Source: Immundisolibacter sp. (GTDB taxonomy: Bacteria; Pseudomonadota; Gammaproteobacteria; Immundisolibacterales; Immundisolibacteraceae). Taken from it: a stretch of 64,000 bases of DNA. The notes beneath the pieces were generated by a model. The model made no database searches and was not told where the DNA came from. It saw nothing but the letters and a program-made list of their open reading frames with translations. Shown here one piece after another: positions 40,859 through 49,851 of this stretch. The number at the start of each line of letters is the position of its first letter. The first letter of the stretch is position 1. The stretch lies in assembly GCF_014359565.1 (NCBI RefSeq), contig NZ_JACIZD010000002.1, positions 186,001 to 250,000 of the forward strand, read 5' to 3'. The position numbers and the translations under genes are program-made.

Positions 40859-41719
40859 GTGAGCAGCGCGCCCAGCTTCAGCTTCGAGTTCTTCCCGCCG
40901 CGCAGCGACGAGGCGGCGGCGCGCCTGGCGGAGGCGCGCCGCGCCCTGCTGCCGCTGCGGCCCGGTTACGTGTCGGTCACCTTCGGCGCCGGCGGCAGCA
41001 CGCGGGATCTGACGCTGGACACCGTCGCCACCCTGCAGCGGCAGGACGGCGTGCCGGTGGCGCCGCACATCTCCTGCGTCGGCGCCACCGCGGCCAGTCT
41101 CAGCGAACTGCTGGACGCCTACCGGGCGCTGGGCATCCGCCGACTGGTGGCGCTGCGCGGCGATCTGCCGTCCGGCATGGGCGACACGCCGGGCGAATTC
41201 CGCTACGCCAGCGACTTGGTGGCCTTCATCCGCCGCCAGACCGGCGACTGGTTTCACCTGGAAGTGGCCGCCTACCCGGAAGTCCACCCGCAGGCCAGGA
41301 GCGCCCGCGCGGACCTGGAGGCCTTCGTGCGCAAGGTGCAGGCCGGCGCCGACGGGGCCATCACGCAGTATTTCTTCAACGCCGACGCCTATTTCCGCTT
41401 CTGCGATGCGGCCGCCGCGGCTGGCGTCACGGTGCCGATCGTGCCCGGCGTGATGCCGATCACCAACTACACGCAACTGGCGCGCTTCTCGGCCGCCTGC
41501 GGGGCGGAAATCCCGCGCTGGCTGGCGCGCCGGCTGGAGGACTACGGCGACGACCTCGACGGCCTGCGCGCCTTCGGGCTGGACGTGACCCTGGCGCTGT
41601 GCCGCCGCCTGCTGGAAGGCGGCGCGCCCGGCATCCACTTCTACACCCTGAACCGCGCCGAACCGACCGCCACCCTGTGGCAGGCCCTGGGCCTGGGCCA
41701 GCCGACCGAGTCCTGCTGA
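40859..41719 (+). CDS. metF: Methylenetetrahydrofolate reductase
   Basis: A 286-residue FAD-dependent TIM-barrel enzyme reducing 5,10-methylene-THF to 5-methyl-THF, the methyl donor for homocysteine. Typical blocks are SFEFFPPRSDEAAARL at the start, VSVTFGAGGSTRD near residue 42, RRLVALRGDLP near residue 98 and AITQYFFNADAYFRFCD near residue 170. GTG start, 9 bp after ahcY, so it belongs to the riboswitch-controlled unit. The SAH riboswitch thereby couples SAH hydrolysis to remethylation. A repeat array starts 38 bp after its stop. Confidence 0.95.
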   Translation: MSSAPSFSFEFFPPRSDEAAARLAEARRALLPLRPGYVSVTFGAGGSTRDLTLDTVATLQRQDGVPVAPHISCVGATAASLSELLDAYRALGIRRLVALRGDLPSGMGDTPGEFRYASDLVAFIRRQTGDWFHLEVAAYPEVHPQARSARADLEAFVRKVQAGADGAITQYFFNADAYFRFCDAAAAAGVTVPIVPGVMPITNYTQLARFSAACGAEIPRWLARRLEDYGDDLDGLRAFGLDVTLALCRRLLEGGAPGIHFYTLNRAEPTATLWQALGLGQPTESC

Positions 41720-41757
41720 CACGCGCGGCGGTGCGCCGCTCCCGCAGATCCACCACC

Positions 41758-42116
41758 GTGGGAGGCCCGCCCTCGGGCCGAATGCCGGTGGGAAGATTCG
41801 CGGCGAGGGCGCCGCTCCCACAGCTGCTCCACTCCCACAGATCCACGACCGTGGGAGACCCGCCCCCGGGCCGAATGCCTGAGCCCGGACCTGTGGGAGG
41901 CCCGCCCCCGGGCCGAATGCCGGTGGGAAGATTCGCGGCGAGGGCGCCGCTCCCACAGCTGCTCCACTCCCACAGACTCACGACCGTGGGAGGCCCGCCT
42001 CGGGCCGAATGCCTGAGCCCGGACCTGTGGGAGGCCCGCCCCCGGGCCGAATGCCGGTGGGAAGATTCGCGGCGAGGGCGCCGCTCCCACAAACCCACCT
42101 CGGGCCGAATGCCTGA
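41758..42116 (+). repeat. Hairpin repeat array A1 (downstream of metF)
   Basis: Several copies of two modules in one orientation: module a, GTGGGAGGCCCGCC(C)(C/T)CGGGCCGAATGCC, and module b, a 34-bp palindrome GTGGGAAGATTCGCGGCGAG...GCCGCTCCCAC. Module-b copies lie at about 41788-41821, 41923-41956 and 42057-42090. Shorter copies of module a are followed by TGAGCCCGGACCT. Each module can fold as a hairpin. The same modules recur at 42870-43205, 46291-46576 and 49787-49851. No protein is encoded. Confidence 0.85.
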
Positions 42117-42205
42117 GCCCACTGGGCTTGCCGCGTCAGCCAACCGATAACGAGCTTGAACGGGTGCTATTGTCGGCCCTGTCTACAGGACCTGAGGATC
42201 CCGGC

Positions 42206-42475
42206 ATGGGCACCAAGTTCTCCGAGGATGTGATCCCGCTGGCCGACCTGAAGGTCAACCCCGGCCGCGTCGTCAAGCATGCGACAGACGCGCACCGGCC
42301 TGTGCTGCTGACCAGCCGCGGGCGCGGCGTGGCCGTGGTGCAATCGCTGAACGACTACGAGGCGGCCGAGGAGGAACGCGCATTCATGCGGGCGGTCGTT
42401 GCCGGTCTGGCCGACCTCGAGGCGGGCCGAGAGCTGTCGCTTGCACAGGCCAAGGCGCGGCTCGGTCTGAAGTAG
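42206..42475 (+). CDS. YefM/Phd-type antitoxin
   Basis: An 89-residue antitoxin-like protein: an N-terminal DNA-binding Phd/YefM fold (DVIPLADLKVNPGRVVKHA, RPVLLTSRGRGVAVVQSLNDYEAAEE) and a C-terminal charged helix (LEAGRELSLAQAKARLGL) that would wrap the toxin. The ATG giving MGTKFSEDV fits the family; an in-frame start 78 bp upstream is less likely. A ParE-type toxin gene starts 4 bp after its stop. The pair sits between repeat arrays A1 and A2, as a small stand-alone module in otherwise housekeeping sequence. Autorepression by the complex is usual for the family. Confidence 0.85.
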   Translation: MGTKFSEDVIPLADLKVNPGRVVKHATDAHRPVLLTSRGRGVAVVQSLNDYEAAEEERAFMRAVVAGLADLEAGRELSLAQAKARLGLK

Positions 42476-42479
42476 CCGC

Positions 42480-42791
42480 GTGGCCAAGGCCGCCATCCGG
42501 CTCGCCGAATCCGCGCTGGCCGATCTGGAGTCGATACGGGCGTGGTACGCCGGACAGGGCGTGCCCGAGGTGGGCGAGCGCTTGCTTGGCCAAATCGTTG
42601 CGAGCATCGAGGCACTCGCCGATCATCCGGACATGGGGCGTATCGTCCCCGAGTTCGACCAGCCTTTTCTGCGCGAGCTGATCCGGCCACCGTTTCGCAT
42701 CGTCTATCGGCGTGACCCGAAGCACGTGCGTGTCGTTCGGGTCTGGCGCAGTGAGCGCCTGCTCGACGTGCCGGACCAAGACGCGCCCTGA
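42480..42791 (+). CDS. RelE/ParE-type toxin
   Basis: A 103-residue ParE/RelE superfamily protein: LAESALADLESIRAWYAGQG at the N-terminus, ADHPDMGRIVPEF in the middle and the C-terminal RPPFRIVYRRDPKHVRVVRVWRSERLL sheet. This layout is closer to ParE (gyrase inhibitors) than to RelE ribosome-dependent RNases, but the class cannot be decided by eye. GTG start 4 bp after the antitoxin stop, so the pair is translated together. The frame looks complete. It is immediately followed by repeat array A2. Confidence 0.86.
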   Translation: MAKAAIRLAESALADLESIRAWYAGQGVPEVGERLLGQIVASIEALADHPDMGRIVPEFDQPFLRELIRPPFRIVYRRDPKHVRVVRVWRSERLLDVPDQDAP

Positions 42792-42869
42792 CGCGCCGAA
42801 TCTGCGAATCAATACGCCATCAATGACTCACCCGCCGCTCGAAGGCGCGTTTCCCGCAGATCCACGACC

Positions 42870-43205
42870 GTGGGAGGCCCGTCGCCGGGCCGAATGCCTG
42901 CGCCCAGCCTTGTGGGAGGCCCGCCTCGGGCCGAATGTCGGTTGAAAGATTCGCGGCGAGGGCGCCGCTCCCACAAGGGTGACCCCGGCCGAATGCCTGC
43001 GCCCAGCCTTGTGGGAGGCCCGCCTCGGGCCGAATGTCGGGTTGGAAGATTCGCGGCGAGGGCGCCGCTCCCACAAGGGTGCCGCTCCCGCAAGCCCGCC
43101 GCCGGGCCGAATGCCTGCGCCCAGCCTTGTGGGAGGCCCGCCTCGGGCCGAATGTCGGTTGGAAGATTCGCGGCGAGGGCGCCGCTCCCACAAGGGTGCC
43201 GCTCC
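42870..43205 (+). repeat. Hairpin repeat array A2 (downstream of the toxin gene)
   Basis: Three repeats of the module a / module b type seen in A1, here with GAATGTCGG(GT)TGGAAGATTCGCGG and separated by GAATGCCTGCGCCCAGCCTT spacers, period about 105-120 bp. The orientation is the same as in A1. It fills the first half of the 813-bp gap between the toxin gene and pilA; the remainder holds the pilA regulatory region. Confidence 0.85.
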
Positions 43206-43221
43206 AAGAATCGGGCAATTT

Positions 43222-43238
43222 TTGTCATATTTTGACAA
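43222..43238. promoter_or_regulatory. TTGTCA-N5-TGACAA inverted repeat upstream of pilA
   Basis: A perfect 6-bp inverted repeat in a short AT-rich island (CAATTTTTGTCATATTTTGA), about 220 bp upstream of the sigma-54 promoter. It contains TGTC/GACA motifs of the sort recognised by the pilin activator PilR in Pseudomonas. It could be an enhancer site, but the distance is large and the assignment is inference. Confidence 0.35.
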
Positions 43239-43460
43239 TCTGCGTCCGGCGGTGCCGTCGCGGTCGGCGGTGTGGGCGATGCCATGCAAACACACGGCGC
43301 GCCGGCCCGGTCGGTCCCGGCACCTGCCGGGCGCCGCCACAATGCCGGCGTCATCCAATACTTCATATTTATATCAATCAGTTGTACATCACCCGGCGGA
43401 CCGGGCAAGCCTCCGATGCGGCGCTCGCCAAGGCACCCCGTCCGACCGCCGCCCCGGCGC

Positions 43461-43476
43461 TGGCACGTGAATTGCT
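43461..43476 (+). promoter_or_regulatory. Sigma-54 promoter of the pilin gene
   Basis: TGGCAC-GTGAA-TTGCT matches the RpoN -24/-12 consensus TGGCAC-N5-TTGCW exactly. It ends 128 bp before the pilin ATG, giving a leader of roughly 115 nt. Pilin genes in Pseudomonas and relatives are transcribed by RpoN under PilS/PilR, so this fits the gene it precedes. Confidence 0.82.
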
Positions 43477-43604
43477 CTACTACATCCGCGCGCCGGCTCA
43501 AGGTCGCCCGCATCGGGTCGTTGACTATTCGGCCACGGTGGCAGGGGGCGGATTGCCGCCGACGCCGACTGGCAATCATTCATCCTTCAATGGGAGATAC
43601 GCAG

Positions 43605-44048
43605 ATGCAGAAACTTCAACAGGGCTTCACGCTCATCGAACTGATGATCGTGGTGGCCATCATCGGCATCCTGGCCGCGCTGGCCGTGCCGGCGTACCAG
43701 GACTACACCATCCGGTCGAAGGTGGCGGAAGCGGCCTCGCTGGCCTCGGCGGTGCGCACGGCGATTGACGTTGCCTTTAGCGAATCCGGCACGCTGGCCG
43801 GCTTGCCGACGACCCATGCGTCGTTGGGGCTTTCCCTGGCCACGTCTTATAAGGCGAAATACGTCTCGACGGTTGCGGTTGGAACTGGCGGTACGGTCAC
43901 TGTGACGATGACGAACGTGAGTGATTTTCCCACGGCTGTTGCGGGTAAGACGGTTATCTACGAGCCGATTAATCGGGGCGGCAACCTCGAATGGGTGGTC
44001 AGCGCCGGCCCATCAACCGTACCCGATAAATACCTGCCGCGTCGTTAA
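43605..44048 (+). CDS. pilA: Type IV major pilin
   Basis: A 147-residue type IVa pilin. The 7-residue leader MQKLQQG is cut by PilD before Phe, and the mature N-terminus [27 protein letters not shown] (Glu5 present) is the standard assembly helix. The globular part is Thr/Val/Gly-rich ([15 protein letters not shown]). The C-terminus [10 protein letters not shown]...DKYLPRR resembles the usual disulfide-bounded D region, but both cysteines are missing, and the protein contains no Cys. Expression is likely RpoN-dependent (promoter at 43461). A strong terminator follows, then two GT-C proteins and a GT2, probably glycosylating it. GGGAGA lies before the ATG. Confidence 0.93.
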
Positions 44049-44065
44049 GCCGGTCAGGTTGGTTA

Positions 44066-44094
44066 AAAAGGGCGGCTTCGGCCGCCCTTTTTTA
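44066..44094 (+). terminator. Rho-independent terminator after pilA
   Basis: Stem AAAAAGGGCGGC / GCCGCCCTTTTT with a TTCG tetraloop and a T-run, 17 bp after the pilA stop and 20 bp before the next gene. It should keep most pilin transcription from entering the glycosyltransferase genes, allowing high pilin and low enzyme levels. Confidence 0.93.
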
Positions 44095-44114
44095 TCTGCA
44101 ACAGTGGTCGGCGG

Positions 44115-46250
44115 ATGAACCCTCGGCATCGCACGCTCGCCCTGGCCGGGTTGCTGGTTCTGGTCGGGCTGGTCTACTGGCCCGGCCTGTCCGGCCCCTG
44201 GTTGTTCGACGATTTCTCCAATATCCGCGACAACGCCTTCCTGCGCGTGACGGCGCTGGACTGGCAGTCCCTGAGCGGCGCCGCAAGCTCGCTGGCGGCG
44301 GGGCCGCTCGGCCGGCCGATTGCTTATCTCAGTTTCGCGCTCGACCACTATTTGCACGGCGACGCCAGCCCGTACGCCTACAAGCTGACCAACCTCGCCA
44401 TCCACGGCCTGAACACGCTGCTGGTGGCGGCGCTGCTGGGCGCCGTGTTGGGCCGTCTGGCGGCGCGGCAGGTGTTGCCGGTGCGACTGGCCGCGCCCGC
44501 GGCGCTGGTGCTCACGGCGCTGTGGGCGCTGCACCCGATCCAGATTTCCAGCGTGCTGTACGTGGTGCAGCGCATGACCAGTCTTTCGGCCACCTTCGGG
44601 CTGGCGGCGCTGCTGTGCTGGCTGCGCGCGCGCGCGCATATTCTCGTAGGAGCGGGCCATGCCCGCGACCGGGACGCTGGACCTGGCCACGACGCCGCCA
44701 ATCCTGAAACCGTCGCGGTCGCGGCCATGGGCCGCTCCTACACCCCGGACCTGACGCAACCGCCTGTCGGAGCGGGCCATGCCCGCGACCGGGGCGCCGT
44801 GCCCGGGCATGACGATGCGCATTTACCCGCCACTGCGGTCGCGGGCATGGCCCGCCCCTACAGCGTCGGCACGGGACGTGGTCTGCCGGGCTGGCTCGCG
44901 CCACTGGGCTGGCTGCTGGCCGGCGTGGCGTTTGCCCTGCTCGGCGCCTTCACCAAGGAAACCGCCGTCCTGCTGCCGCTGTACGCGCTGCTGCTGAACC
45001 GGGTGCTGTACCCGCAGGCGCCGTACTGGCAACGCTGGCTGCGCGTGCCCGCCGGGCTGCGGCTGGCGCTGCTGGTGGCGGCGCTGACGGTGGTGTTCGG
45101 CCTCGCCGCCTGGTATTGCGCGTCGGGCTACGCCGGCCGGCCCTTCACGCTGACCGAGCGCGTGCTGACGCAGGCGCGGGTGCTGTGGTTCTACATCGGC
45201 CTGGTGGCGCTGCCGCGCATCGATGCATTTGGCCTGCACCACGACGACATTGCGCTGTCCATCGGGCTGCTGGCGCCGTGGACCACGCTGCCGGCCTTGC
45301 TGGGGCTGGCCGGGCTGGCACTGCTCGGCTGGCGGTGCCTGGACCGCCGGCCGCTGGTGGGCCTGGGCCTGCTGTGGTTCCTGGCCGGGCATGTGCTGGA
45401 ATCCACCGTGGTGCCGCTGGAAATCGCCCACGAGCACCGCAACTACCTGCCGAGTCTGGGCCTGCTGCTGGCCGGCGCGGGCGTGCTGCTGCCGCTGGTC
45501 GAACACTGGCGGCGGCGGGCGACGGTGGCGCTGGTGGCGACCCTCGGCGCCCTGCTGGCCGCCACCACGGCGCTGCGGGCCGATCAGTGGGGCGATGAGC
45601 TGGGCATGAGCCGCTACGAGGTTCGCCACCACCCCGGTTCGGCCCAGGCTCGCAACAATCTGGCCGCCGATCTGGTGTGGCGCGGCCACTACGCAGAGGC
45701 CCGTGAACACCTCGAGGCGGCGATCGAACTGGCGCCGTGGGAAGTGGGCTACCCGATGAACCTGGTCGGCGCCTATCGGGTGCAGAAACTGGACCCCCCA
45801 CCGGCGCTGAGCGCGGAAATCCTGGAGCGCATTCGCACCCAGCCGCTGAGCGCCTTCGGCAGCTCGACCCTGAAACGCTACAGCGAGTGCCTGCCGAAGG
45901 CTTGCACGTACATGACCGACGACGTCACCGGCTGGCTGGAGGCCTACCTGGCCGGCGGCCAGCCGACCTTCGATCGCTCCTACGTGCAGTTCCTGCTTGG
46001 CCGCGCCTACCGCGAGCAGGGGCGCATCCAGGACGCGCTGAACGCCTTCCAGCGCGCCCACGACCTGGACCCGCGCTACCTGCACCCGCTGTTCGAGCAG
46101 GCCAACATCCTGCTGAGCCTGCGCCAGTGGGACACCGCGGCGCTGGTGCTGGACAGCATCCGCGCCGCCAACGAAAACGCATATCAGCGCCTGGACCGGC
46201 AGATTGCGGAACTCGATGCAGCGATTGCCAAGGGGCGGGGCGGCAAATGA
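44115..46250 (+). CDS. TMTC-like GT-C membrane glycosyltransferase with TPR domain (paralogue 1)
   Basis: A 711-residue protein: about ten membrane helices, then a soluble TPR-like C-terminus (from about residue 490; AQARNNLAADLVWRGHYAEAREHLEAAI and AYREQGRIQDALNAFQRAHDLDP). The first external loop carries FDDFSNIRDN, then GRPIAYLSFALDHYLHG, matching the acidic GT-C site of TMTC/PMT-type O-mannosyltransferases. HPIQISSVLYVVQRMTSLSATF and STVVPLEIAHEHRNYLPS are shared with the paralogue at 46678. Residues 178-249 are encoded by two tandem 120-bp palindromic repeats and read as two related 40-residue units (VGAGHARDR...). Position after pilA suggests pilin O-glycosylation. Confidence 0.8.
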   Translation: MNPRHRTLALAGLLVLVGLVYWPGLSGPWLFDDFSNIRDNAFLRVTALDWQSLSGAASSLAAGPLGRPIAYLSFALDHYLHGDASPYAYKLTNLAIHGLNTLLVAALLGAVLGRLAARQVLPVRLAAPAALVLTALWALHPIQISSVLYVVQRMTSLSATFGLAALLCWLRARAHILVGAGHARDRDAGPGHDAANPETVAVAAMGRSYTPDLTQPPVGAGHARDRGAVPGHDDAHLPATAVAGMARPYSVGTGRGLPGWLAPLGWLLAGVAFALLGAFTKETAVLLPLYALLLNRVLYPQAPYWQRWLRVPAGLRLALLVAALTVVFGLAAWYCASGYAGRPFTLTERVLTQARVLWFYIGLVALPRIDAFGLHHDDIALSIGLLAPWTTLPALLGLAGLALLGWRCLDRRPLVGLGLLWFLAGHVLESTVVPLEIAHEHRNYLPSLGLLLAGAGVLLPLVEHWRRRATVALVATLGALLAATTALRADQWGDELGMSRYEVRHHPGSAQARNNLAADLVWRGHYAEAREHLEAAIELAPWEVGYPMNLVGAYRVQKLDPPPALSAEILERIRTQPLSAFGSSTLKRYSECLPKACTYMTDDVTGWLEAYLAGGQPTFDRSYVQFLLGRAYREQGRIQDALNAFQRAHDLDPRYLHPLFEQANILLSLRQWDTAALVLDSIRAANENAYQRLDRQIAELDAAIAKGRGGK
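44646..44861. repeat. Two tandem 120-bp palindromic repeats inside a coding region
   Basis: Each unit has GTAGGAGCGGGCCATGCCCG..CGACC and its inverse GGTCGCGG(G/C)CATGG..CCGCTCCTAC about 70 bp apart (44646-44670 with 44717-44741; 44766-44790 with 44837-44861). The second unit starts exactly 120 bp after the first, so both are read in the same frame and add 40 residues each to the membrane protein. The element looks like a mobile extragenic repeat that landed in a coding sequence. Confidence 0.88.
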
Positions 46251-46290
46251 GCTGGCGTGTCCCCGCCACCGGACTGCGTGGCCTCTGGCC

Positions 46291-46576
46291 GTGGGAGGCC
46301 CGCCCCCGGGCCGAATTGGGCCGGTGGGGGTGTGTGGATTCGGTGCCGGCGGCTTCGCGGCGAGGGCGCCGCTCCCACATGCCCGCCCGGGCCGAATGCC
46401 TGAGCCCGGGTTTGTGGGAGGCCCGCCCTCGGGCCGAATGCCTGAGCCCGAGCCGTGGGAGGCCCGCCCCCGGGCCGAATGTCTGAGCCACGACCGTGGG
46501 AGCCCGCCCCCGGGCCGAATGTCGGTGGGAAGATTCGCGGCGAGGGCGCCGCTCCCACAGGGGCGGTGCTCCCACG
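46291..46576 (+). repeat. Hairpin repeat array A3 (between the two GT-C genes)
   Basis: Copies of GTGGGAGGCCCGCCCCCGGGCCGAAT and of the TTCGCGGCGAGGGCGCCGCTCCCAC module in the same orientation as A1/A2, with spacers TGCCTGAGCCCGGGTTTGTG and related. It fills most of the 427-bp gap between the paralogous GT-C genes; the last 100 bp before the second gene contain its AT-richer putative promoter (ATGAAAATCCATATACCCAA). Confidence 0.85.
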
Positions 46577-46677
46577 GGGGCGACGCCCCAGCAAGCGCCG
46601 CTGTCGCGAATGAAAATCCATATACCCAAAATTGATGGCGCTGAGGCCGGACGCCGGCTGGTGACGCAACAGCAACT

Positions 46678-48723
46678 ATGAAACTGCCCCGCAAATTGCA
46701 GGCGGCCGCCCTGCTGGCCACGCTGGCGCTGGTGGTGCTGGCCTATCTGCCGGGCCTGCGCGGGCCGTTCGTGTTCGACGATTACCCGAACATCCTGAAC
46801 AACCCGGCGGTGGCGGTGACCGAATTCACGCCGCAGGCGCTGGGCGCGGCGGCGCTTTCCAACACCAGCGGGCCGCTGGGCCGGCCGCTGGCGGCGCTGT
46901 CGTTCGGTATCGACCATTACCGGGCCGGGGGGTTCTATCCACTGGCCTTCAAGCTGAGCAATCTGGCCATCCACCTGCTGAACGTGCTGCTGGTGTATGC
47001 GCTGGCCGGGCGCCTGGCGCGCCGGCTGGGTGCGGGAGAGATGGCGCCGACGGTAGGGCTGTTCTGCGCCCTGCTGTGGGGCCTGCATCCGCTGCAACTG
47101 ACCAGCGTGCTGTACGTGGTGCAGCGCATGACCAGCCTGGCGGCGACCTTCACGCTGGCGGCGATGCTGTGCTGGCTGCAGGCGCGGGAGCTATGGGCGG
47201 GTTCGGGCGCGGGCGGTGCCGGCGATACGGCCAACGTGGGCCCGGTTGGCCCCACGGGCACAAGCCGACGCGCGTCGACCGGTGAAGGGCAGACGTCGGG
47301 TTACGCTGCGCTAACCCGACCTACGGGCTGGCTGCTGGCCTGCGGGGTGTTGTTCGTGCTCGGGATGCTGAGCAAGGAAAACGCCATCCTGCTGCCGCTG
47401 TATCTGGGGGTGATCGAGCTGTGCCTGTGGCGCTGGCACGACACCGCCGACGCCGACCACGGCCGTCGGGCGGCGACGTGGTTTTTTGCCGTGACGCTGC
47501 TGGCGCCGCTGCTGGTCGGCCTGGCGCTGTTCGTCTGGCAGCCGGGGCTGCTTCTGGATGGCTACGCCAGCCGGCCGTTCACGCTGGGCGAGCGGCTGCT
47601 GACCGAGGCGCGGGTGCTGTGGTTTTACGTGGGCCTGGTGCTGCTGCCGACGCCGGCGCGGCTGGGTCTGTATCACGACGACATTGCGACCTCGACCGGG
47701 CTGCTGGAGCCGTGGACCACGCTGCTGGCCCTCGACGGCTGGCTGGTGGTGCTGATGGCGGCGCTGCTGCTGCGCCGACGGGCCCCGGCCTTCACCTTCG
47801 GCGTGCTGTGGTTCCTGGCCGGGCATGTGCTGGAATCGACCGTGGTGCCGCTGGAGATTGCCCACGAGCACCGCAATTACCTGCCCAGTTTCGGGCTGCT
47901 GTTCGCCGCCGTGTATGGCGTGGCCCGCTTTGCCCGACATACCGGCAACCGGCGTGTCTACGCCGTGCTGGGTCTTGCCACCGCGCTGGCGCTGGGCTTT
48001 GGCACCTTCGGCCGGGCGGCGTCCTGGCACAGCGAGGAGACCATCATCGAGGCGCTGTATCGCCATCATCCGCAGTCGGCTTCGGCGCAGCAGATGATGG
48101 GCGAGCTGATGCTCAAGCGCTATGGCCAGCCGGCGCAGGCGGTGGCGCATTACCGGCGCGCCTACGAACTGGCGCCGTGGGAGACCGGCTATGCGATCCG
48201 GGCCGCCTGGGCGGATCGCGCCGCCGGCGAGCCGGTGCCAACGCTGGCCGAGCAGGACGTGATCGCCAAGGCGCTGCGCGAACGCCCGCTGCCGCCGACC
48301 ACGCTGATCGCGCTGCAGAGCCTGAGCGACTGCGCGCTGGCCGGCGAGGCGCCGTGCCGGGATCTGACGCCGGCGCTGCTGGCCTGGCTGGCGGCGGCCG
48401 CCGAGAACCCGCGCATCAACGCCGTCAGCCTGACGCAGGTGACGATCAACTACGGCCAGATCTGCCTGCAGACCGACCGTTTCGACCAAGGCCTGGCCTG
48501 GGTGCAGTCGGCCTACCGGCGCTCGTCGCAGCCGGTGTTTCGACTGATGGAAGCCAATTTCCGGATGCTGCAGGGCGACCTGGACGGCGCCTCGGCGGTG
48601 CTGGACGAGGTCCGCCGCGTGCCGGAATTGAGCGCCACCGACGCCGGCCACCTGGCCGTGCTGCGGGACGCGATCGCAAACCGCCGCGCCGGCGCGGTGG
48701 CCGGCGATGGTCCGCCACGCTGA
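46678..48723 (+). CDS. TMTC-like GT-C membrane glycosyltransferase with TPR-like C-terminus (paralogue 2)
   Basis: A 681-residue paralogue of the 44115 protein with the same order of motifs: FDDYPNILNNPAVAV near residue 37, GRPLAALSFGIDHYRAGG, ALLWGLHPLQLTSVLYVVQRMTSLAATF near residue 140, GMLSKENAILLPLYLG, and STVVPLEIAHEHRNYLPSFGLLFA near residue 390. The C-terminal third is helical and TPR-like (QPAQAVAHYRRAYELAPWETGYAIR). Residues about 187-216 lie in the same loop as the repeat insert of paralogue 1 and are encoded by two different palindromes. GT-C fold and O-mannosyl-type transfer are inferred from TMTC similarity. Probably acts on pilin or another exported protein. Confidence 0.8.
   Translation: MKLPRKLQAAALLATLALVVLAYLPGLRGPFVFDDYPNILNNPAVAVTEFTPQALGAAALSNTSGPLGRPLAALSFGIDHYRAGGFYPLAFKLSNLAIHLLNVLLVYALAGRLARRLGAGEMAPTVGLFCALLWGLHPLQLTSVLYVVQRMTSLAATFTLAAMLCWLQARELWAGSGAGGAGDTANVGPVGPTGTSRRASTGEGQTSGYAALTRPTGWLLACGVLFVLGMLSKENAILLPLYLGVIELCLWRWHDTADADHGRRAATWFFAVTLLAPLLVGLALFVWQPGLLLDGYASRPFTLGERLLTEARVLWFYVGLVLLPTPARLGLYHDDIATSTGLLEPWTTLLALDGWLVVLMAALLLRRRAPAFTFGVLWFLAGHVLESTVVPLEIAHEHRNYLPSFGLLFAAVYGVARFARHTGNRRVYAVLGLATALALGFGTFGRAASWHSEETIIEALYRHHPQSASAQQMMGELMLKRYGQPAQAVAHYRRAYELAPWETGYAIRAAWADRAAGEPVPTLAEQDVIAKALRERPLPPTTLIALQSLSDCALAGEAPCRDLTPALLAWLAAAAENPRINAVSLTQVTINYGQICLQTDRFDQGLAWVQSAYRRSSQPVFRLMEANFRMLQGDLDGASAVLDEVRRVPELSATDAGHLAVLRDAIANRRAGAVAGDGPPR
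47236..47324. repeat. Two palindromic elements inside the second GT-C gene
   Basis: GTGGGCCCGGTTGGCCCCAC (47236-47255) and GTCGGGTTACGCTGCGCTAACCCGAC followed by CTAC (47295-47324). The second is a widespread-looking gammaproteobacterial extragenic palindrome. Both are read as protein (NVGPVGPTG and TSGYAALTRPT) within the loop that in paralogue 1 carries a different repeat. Confidence 0.8.
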
Positions 48724-49786: not shown

Positions 49787-49851
49787 GTGGAAGGCCCGCC
49801 CCCGGGCCGAATGTCGGGTTGGAAGATTCGCGGCGAGGGCGCCGCTCCCAC
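49787..49851 (+). repeat. Hairpin repeat A4 (downstream of the GT2 gene)
   Basis: One composite unit of the A1-A3 family: GTGGAAGGCCCGCCCCCGGG, then GAATGTCGGGTTGGAAGATT and the GCGGCG/CGCCGC hairpin ending CTCCCAC. Same orientation as the other arrays. It lies between the convergent GT2 and methyltransferase genes and may act as a transcript end. Confidence 0.82.

Follow-up and report, generated by a model that had tools for sequence, protein, structure and literature searches.

P1, a gene for a membrane protein, carries within its open frame two tandem units of a palindromic repeat, which raises the question of where this DNA came from and whether the peptide encoded by it serves the protein or is simply carried along. 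The preliminary description regarded the array as extragenic palindromic DNA domesticated as protein sequence in a membrane glycosyltransferase. The locus was considered within the window (the whole 64-kb stretch of DNA analysed), within the genome to which the window belongs (3.09 Mb, a draft of 27 contigs) and in comparison with a sister species, G002 (3.24 Mb, one contig). The features discussed are collected in Table 1.

Table 1. Positions of the genes and palindromic elements in the window.
Feature	Coordinates	Strand	Description
Type IV pilin gene	43605..44048	+	Immediately upstream of P1; PF00114 and PF07963
P1, TMTC-like membrane protein with C-terminal TPRs	44115..46250	+	711 aa ORF, TPR domains, invariant motifs
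REPIN unit 1	44646..44741	+	96 bp, two inverted GTAG REPs, 32 codons, residues 178-209
REP copy 1	44646..44668	+	GTAG end outward, stem GCGGGC-CAT-GCCCGC
REP copy 2	44719..44741	-	Stem variant, 2 mismatches
Linker between REPIN units	44742..44765	+	24 bp, 8 codons
REPIN unit 2	44766..44861	+	96 bp
REP copy 3	44766..44788	+	GTCG in place of GTAG
REP copy 4	44839..44861	-	1 mismatch
P2, paralogue of P1	46678..48723	+	681 aa, 43% identical to P1
GTAG palindrome GTAGGTCGGGTTAGCGCAGCGTAACCCGAC in the P2 loop	47295..47324	-	Read as SGYAALTRPT

The P1 gene contains the GTAG-tagged REP GTAGGAGCGGGCCATGCCCGCGA four times; the copies pair up in inverted orientation into two doublets of 96 bp (REPIN/BIME), spaced at 120 bp. 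With up to three mismatches allowed, these four copies are the only matches to GTAGGAGCGGGCCATGCCCGCGA in the window, and none was obtained in 100 dinucleotide shuffles. The repeat is an imperfect palindrome with the layout GTAG-GA-GCGGGC-CAT-GCCCGC-GA, the tag being GTCG in one of the four copies; the stem variant of REP copy 2 is also present at intergenic sites. Repeat detection conducted independently of the GTAGGAGCGGGCCATGCCCGCGA search found inverted arms of 31 nt (90% identity) and 28 nt (93%), as well as direct repeats with a period of exactly 120 bp, which results from the 96-bp pair and the 24-bp linker. The exact tandem period and the head-to-head palindrome in each unit, both noticed in the preliminary description, are thus borne out, and the unit can be refined to 96 bp plus linker. 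The linker does not clearly match the sequences flanking either unit, and an Rfam search with the repeat returned no match.

The insert spans 216 nt, or 72 codons (residues 178-249), and the frame of P1 is open throughout its 711 codons, REP units included, in accordance with the earlier reading of an in-frame array without stops. The units differ at 25 of 96 nucleotide positions, and their translations, VGAGHARDRDAGPGHDAANPETVAVAAMGRSY and VGAGHARDRGAVPGHDDAHLPATAVAGMARPY, are identical at 21 of 32 residues, so the two segments are related as had been described. The segment is presumably translated, DAGPGHDAANPETVAVAAMGR being an example of a peptide from the predicted product.

Pattern searches, together with an inspection of the 3-kb loci surrounding the hits, revealed 13 REP matches at seven places in the window's genome and none for the reversed pattern. 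P1 is the only one of these places where a coding-like ORF holds the REP; the other six lie outside such frames, and several are flanked by convergent genes. The normally extragenic location of the unit and its recurrence in the genome, which the preliminary description had supposed, were therefore confirmed. G002 contains 34 REP copies (reversed-pattern control, 0), and among the 15 places examined there, REPs lie within a coding-like ORF only in the P1 orthologue. The exact 23-mer occurs in 8 of 369 genomes of the class. A RAYT gene (Y1_Tnp) of G002, located at C1:1794834-1795298, is surrounded by seven REP copies within ~950 bp, an arrangement that matches the REPtron, as a RAYT transposase gene among its REPs has been named (PMC3733652). 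No orthologue of this RAYT was found in the window's genome, where the best match, 53% identical (C4:560-976), sits among two other REP families; the mobilising enzyme is accordingly deduced from the sister species, and a protein of the G002 type would have inserted the units. By its tag, inverted doublet, dispersal and RAYT link, the last by way of G002, the P1 repeat is a GTAG REP/REPIN, although REPs and REPINs are defined by an extragenic location and the P1 copies sit in a coding frame; GTAG REPs inside genes are nonetheless counted as members of the superfamily (PMC3733652).

The protein encoded by P1 has a TMTC-like pattern: a DD motif comes behind the first membrane helix, in the first external loop, and a KE motif behind the next helix downstream of the insert, ahead of the following external loop. 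Residues D32/D33 and K281 are invariant in nine homologues, H140/P141 and Y444 are likewise invariant across homologues, and E282 is present in P1 and P2. P1 had no Pfam match to DUF1736 (PF08409) at 1e-3, and a Foldseek search with the P1 model found mostly TPR structures and no GT-C enzyme among the matches listed. Judging by the TMTC-like motifs, from which the activity is deduced, P1 is likely the membrane glycosyltransferase of the preliminary description. In the AlphaFold 2 model (mean pLDDT 77, pTM 0.74), two confidently modelled helices, 150-186 and 261-280, enclose residues 191-255, where pLDDT falls below 50; the insert loop is accordingly predicted to be disordered. A simple hydropathy count and an arginine-rich border suggest that it is cytoplasmic.

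The interval from QRMTSL to KE, which contains this loop, measures 47-54 residues in 52 of 56 proteins, and the exceptions are P1 (131), its G002 orthologue (87), P2 (86) and the G002 orthologue of P2 (69). The gain in one loop of P1, previously noticed, amounts to ~72-79 residues. The REP segment is absent from every homologue examined from outside the genus, as would be expected of the insertion proposed in the preliminary description. A search for related loci found distant homologues only, all without the insert; since protein identity is well under 50% even for the closest homologues without the insert, the exact empty site is unreadable in DNA. The G002 orthologue of P1 contains a single 96-bp in-frame unit at the same site, identical to unit 2 of P1 at 91 of 96 nucleotides. 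The spacer of unit 1 is 64% identical to that of unit 2, near the 99.5% point of shuffles (66%), and 70% identical to that of the G002 unit, and as unrelated intergenic REPINs reach 63-67%, duplication, independent insertion and loss in G002 are inseparable by these values. Unit 1 and the G002 unit agree at every one of their first 32 nt, and the remainder of the G002 unit closely resembles unit 2; recombination between units would fit this pattern of identities.

The divergence of P1 from its G002 orthologue bears on the condition of the gene. The dN/dS ratio is ~0.3 both before and after the insert, and purifying selection on the flanks indicates that P1 is alive. Within the insert, 32 aligned codons contain three nucleotide differences (3.1%; dN 0.029, dS 0.040), too few to judge selection. 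Divergence along P1 is uneven, the ends often having dS ~0.5-1.6 and the middle ~0.04-0.3, so the low value of the insert is not special. The pilin gene has dS ~1.1 and P2 0.14 overall, and the mosaic divergence at 43605-46250 suggests recombination at the pilin locus.

A comparison of window positions 40859-48723 with the G002 regions C1:2504500-2509500 and C1:3159000-3167500 indicated that the block comprising the pilin gene and P1 has moved between the two genomes. In the window, this block stands between a methylenetetrahydrofolate reductase-like gene and P2; in G002, the P2 orthologue directly follows the reductase-like gene, and the pilin gene and P1 lie ~656 kb away. Just upstream of the pilin gene, two small adjacent ORFs (42128-42791), judged by eye, resemble an antitoxin and a RelE/ParE-type toxin, and a similar small toxin-like ORF is found near P1 in G002 (L015, ~650-940). 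The surroundings also contain arrays of the palindromic repeats GTGGGAGGCCCGCCCCCGGGCCGAAT and GTGGGAGCGGCGCCCTCGCCGCGAA in alternating orientation, outside identified genes (41758-42090, 42870-43191, 46291-46558 and 49787-49851); copies of both flank the Y1_Tnp gene at C4:560-976 as well.

The homologous loop of the paralogue P2 is also extended (86 residues against a median of 52) and contains a different GTAG palindrome, GTAGGTCGGGTTAGCGCAGCGTAACCCGAC, which the preliminary description had missed. The idea that this extension is a decayed copy of the P1 REP was rejected, since the palindrome is a different one. The exact GTAGGTCGGGTTAGCGCAGCGTAACCCGAC element is present in a single copy in the window's genome; as a dispersed repeat, the element was recovered from 27 of the 369 genomes of the class, against 0 for the control. 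A search of G002 for exact GTAGGTCGGGTTAGCGCAGCGTAACCCGAC found none, so it is missing from the P2 orthologue there (L089), the loop of which, after QRMTSL, is 17 residues above the family median and gave no hit in the search for the GTAG palindrome. Compared with this orthologue, the segment of P2 looks replaced, without a clean insertion, which leaves the number of events uncertain. GTAGGTCGGGTTAGCGCAGCGTAACCCGAC shares the GTAG end and the GCGCAGCG loop with another palindrome, GTAGGGCGGAATAGCGCAGCGTATTCCGCC, found at the edges of two Y1_Tnp genes in the window's genome. These near-identical genes (L092, C2:6649-7287, and L093, C4:182579-183220) have inverted GTAGGGCGGAATAGCGCAGCGTATTCCGCC copies on both sides, ~0.6 kb apart, and together with them look like complete transposase-plus-REP elements; similar pairs are present in G002.

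Taken together, these data are very probably explained by REP passengers tolerated in a permissive loop, the copy number of which shifts in frame-preserving steps. A RAYT-type REP doublet (REPIN) would have entered the TMTC-like gene in an ancestor common to G002; its frame and 96-bp length would have left the ORF open, and the presumably cytoplasmic loop would have tolerated the extra residues. The lineage of the window may then have gained a second unit, or G002 may have lost one, giving the present two units with a 120-bp period and the frame kept. Independently, and in the window's lineage only, a GTAG palindrome of another family would have entered the same loop of P2. Intergenic doublets of the same genus are 97, 104, 114 or 142 bp long, and the length is divisible by three in one of the nine intergenic REPINs measured, compared with all three in-gene units. 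Once the length fits, an open insertion is not improbable, because about half of the frames through intergenic REPINs (26 of 54) are free of stops. Under the simplest reading, the P1 peptide would be a near-neutral passenger that adds no function; no signs of usefulness were found in selection, structure, copy number or homologues.

An alternative is that the element acts at the RNA level, hairpins in the mRNA slowing translation between two transmembrane helices or affecting stability, with the peptide as a by-product. Each 96-bp unit folds at ~-65 kcal/mol as RNA, and when folded as single-stranded DNA both units are far more stable than shuffled sequences (z -8.1 and -5.2); a role as RNA elements has been supposed for transcribed REPs (PMC3733652). 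Such folding is, however, inherent to any REPIN and gives no evidence of function, and the hairpin of the P2 element is far weaker (-9.6 kcal/mol as DNA), which makes this explanation unlikely. True domestication, where selection would maintain the peptide for a present use, e.g., as a part of the membrane enzyme that serves regulation or interaction, appears quite unlikely. The frame is kept in two species, the loops of both paralogues are long in this genus, and the nucleotide divergence of the insert is low; but this low divergence equals that of the neighbouring central part of P1 in several windows (dS ~0.04 in places), the few substitutions have dN close to dS, the segment is predicted to be disordered, and the number of units varies between species. 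The preliminary description is therefore supported as far as REP DNA in a coding frame is concerned, but "domesticated", in the sense of a useful segment, gains no support, the segment also being absent outside the genus. A bolder suggestion, that the cytoplasmic loop of this pilin-linked TMTC-like family has repeatedly received insertions from several RAYT/REP families in the genus and that the peptides were recruited to tune the enzyme, loop length varying by the number of translated REPINs, is distinctly improbable. It is very improbable that P1 is a pseudogene, or two genes with a normal intergenic REPIN between them: GC-rich DNA may leave a frame open by chance, given the stop-free proportion mentioned above, but the lengths divisible by three are exceptional among intergenic REPINs, homologues are continuous across the site with conserved motifs on both sides, codon use is coding-like and dN/dS low on either side, and the same intact gene exists in G002. 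The two-unit array is just as improbable as an artefact of repeat collapse or expansion in a draft assembly, being only 216 bp long and composed of clearly differing units, and the independent one-contig G002 genome having the same insertion with one unit.

The interpretation of the repeats as tolerated passengers can be compared with several known systems. P1 shares the DD motif, the KE motif and the C-terminal TPRs with TMTC O-mannosyltransferases and their bacterial homologues (PMC7801869); unlike them, it has no DUF1736 Pfam match and adjoins a pilin gene, and its TMTC-like activity is putative. In human TMTCs, the cytoplasmic TM6-TM7 loop preceding the KE-bearing region is overly long relative to templates (PMC7801869), and the insert loop of P1 probably corresponds to it.

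In-frame palindromic repeats as such are already known. The RPEs of Rickettsia (Ogata and Claverie, cited in PMC3733652), known before the GTAG REPs were catalogued in 2013, are likewise palindromic repeats lying in frame in protein genes and tolerated there, but RPE-4 and RPE-6 of R. conorii are assigned to the CGTC superfamily, which lacks a dedicated transposase (PMC3733652), whereas the tag here is GTAG, with a RAYT. The P1 repeat, without the CGTC tag and family sequence, works like an in-frame RPE and yet is no member of that group. It resembles REPINs (Bertels and Rainey 2011, PMC3116915) in being an inverted REP doublet with hairpin potential, dispersed and RAYT-linked; REPINs were defined in extragenic space, whereas the P1 units are coding, and the copy number is low (13 and 34 REP matches).

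The closest parallel is the 2013 catalogue of intragenic GTAG REPs by Di Nocera et al. (PMC3733652), which includes ORFs containing one REP, a pair or a cluster, with 20-82 residues encoded, a report of two dimers in one ORF and a comparable same-site case, recB in two Xanthomonas species; the tolerance of flexible loops to insertions was proposed there for intragenic REPs in general. The GTAG tag, GA extra bases, 6-bp stem, CAT loop and short tail of the P1 repeat correspond to the GTAG-1 type, and head-to-head dimers or clusters in ORFs are common to both, but the host gene family is different (PMC3733652). The turning of mobile palindromic DNA into protein sequence is therefore not a new phenomenon, and P1 is a further case of it, with a same-loop replicate in P2. 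What this locus adds to the known kind is the loop found empty in more than 50 homologues, the one-unit and two-unit states of sister species and the two paralogues hit in one loop by different elements. The empty, one-unit and two-unit states all exist among living relatives, which makes this a well-documented route from mobile DNA to protein, and P2 is a separate replicate with a different element; together they make the question of neutral filler or new function directly testable.
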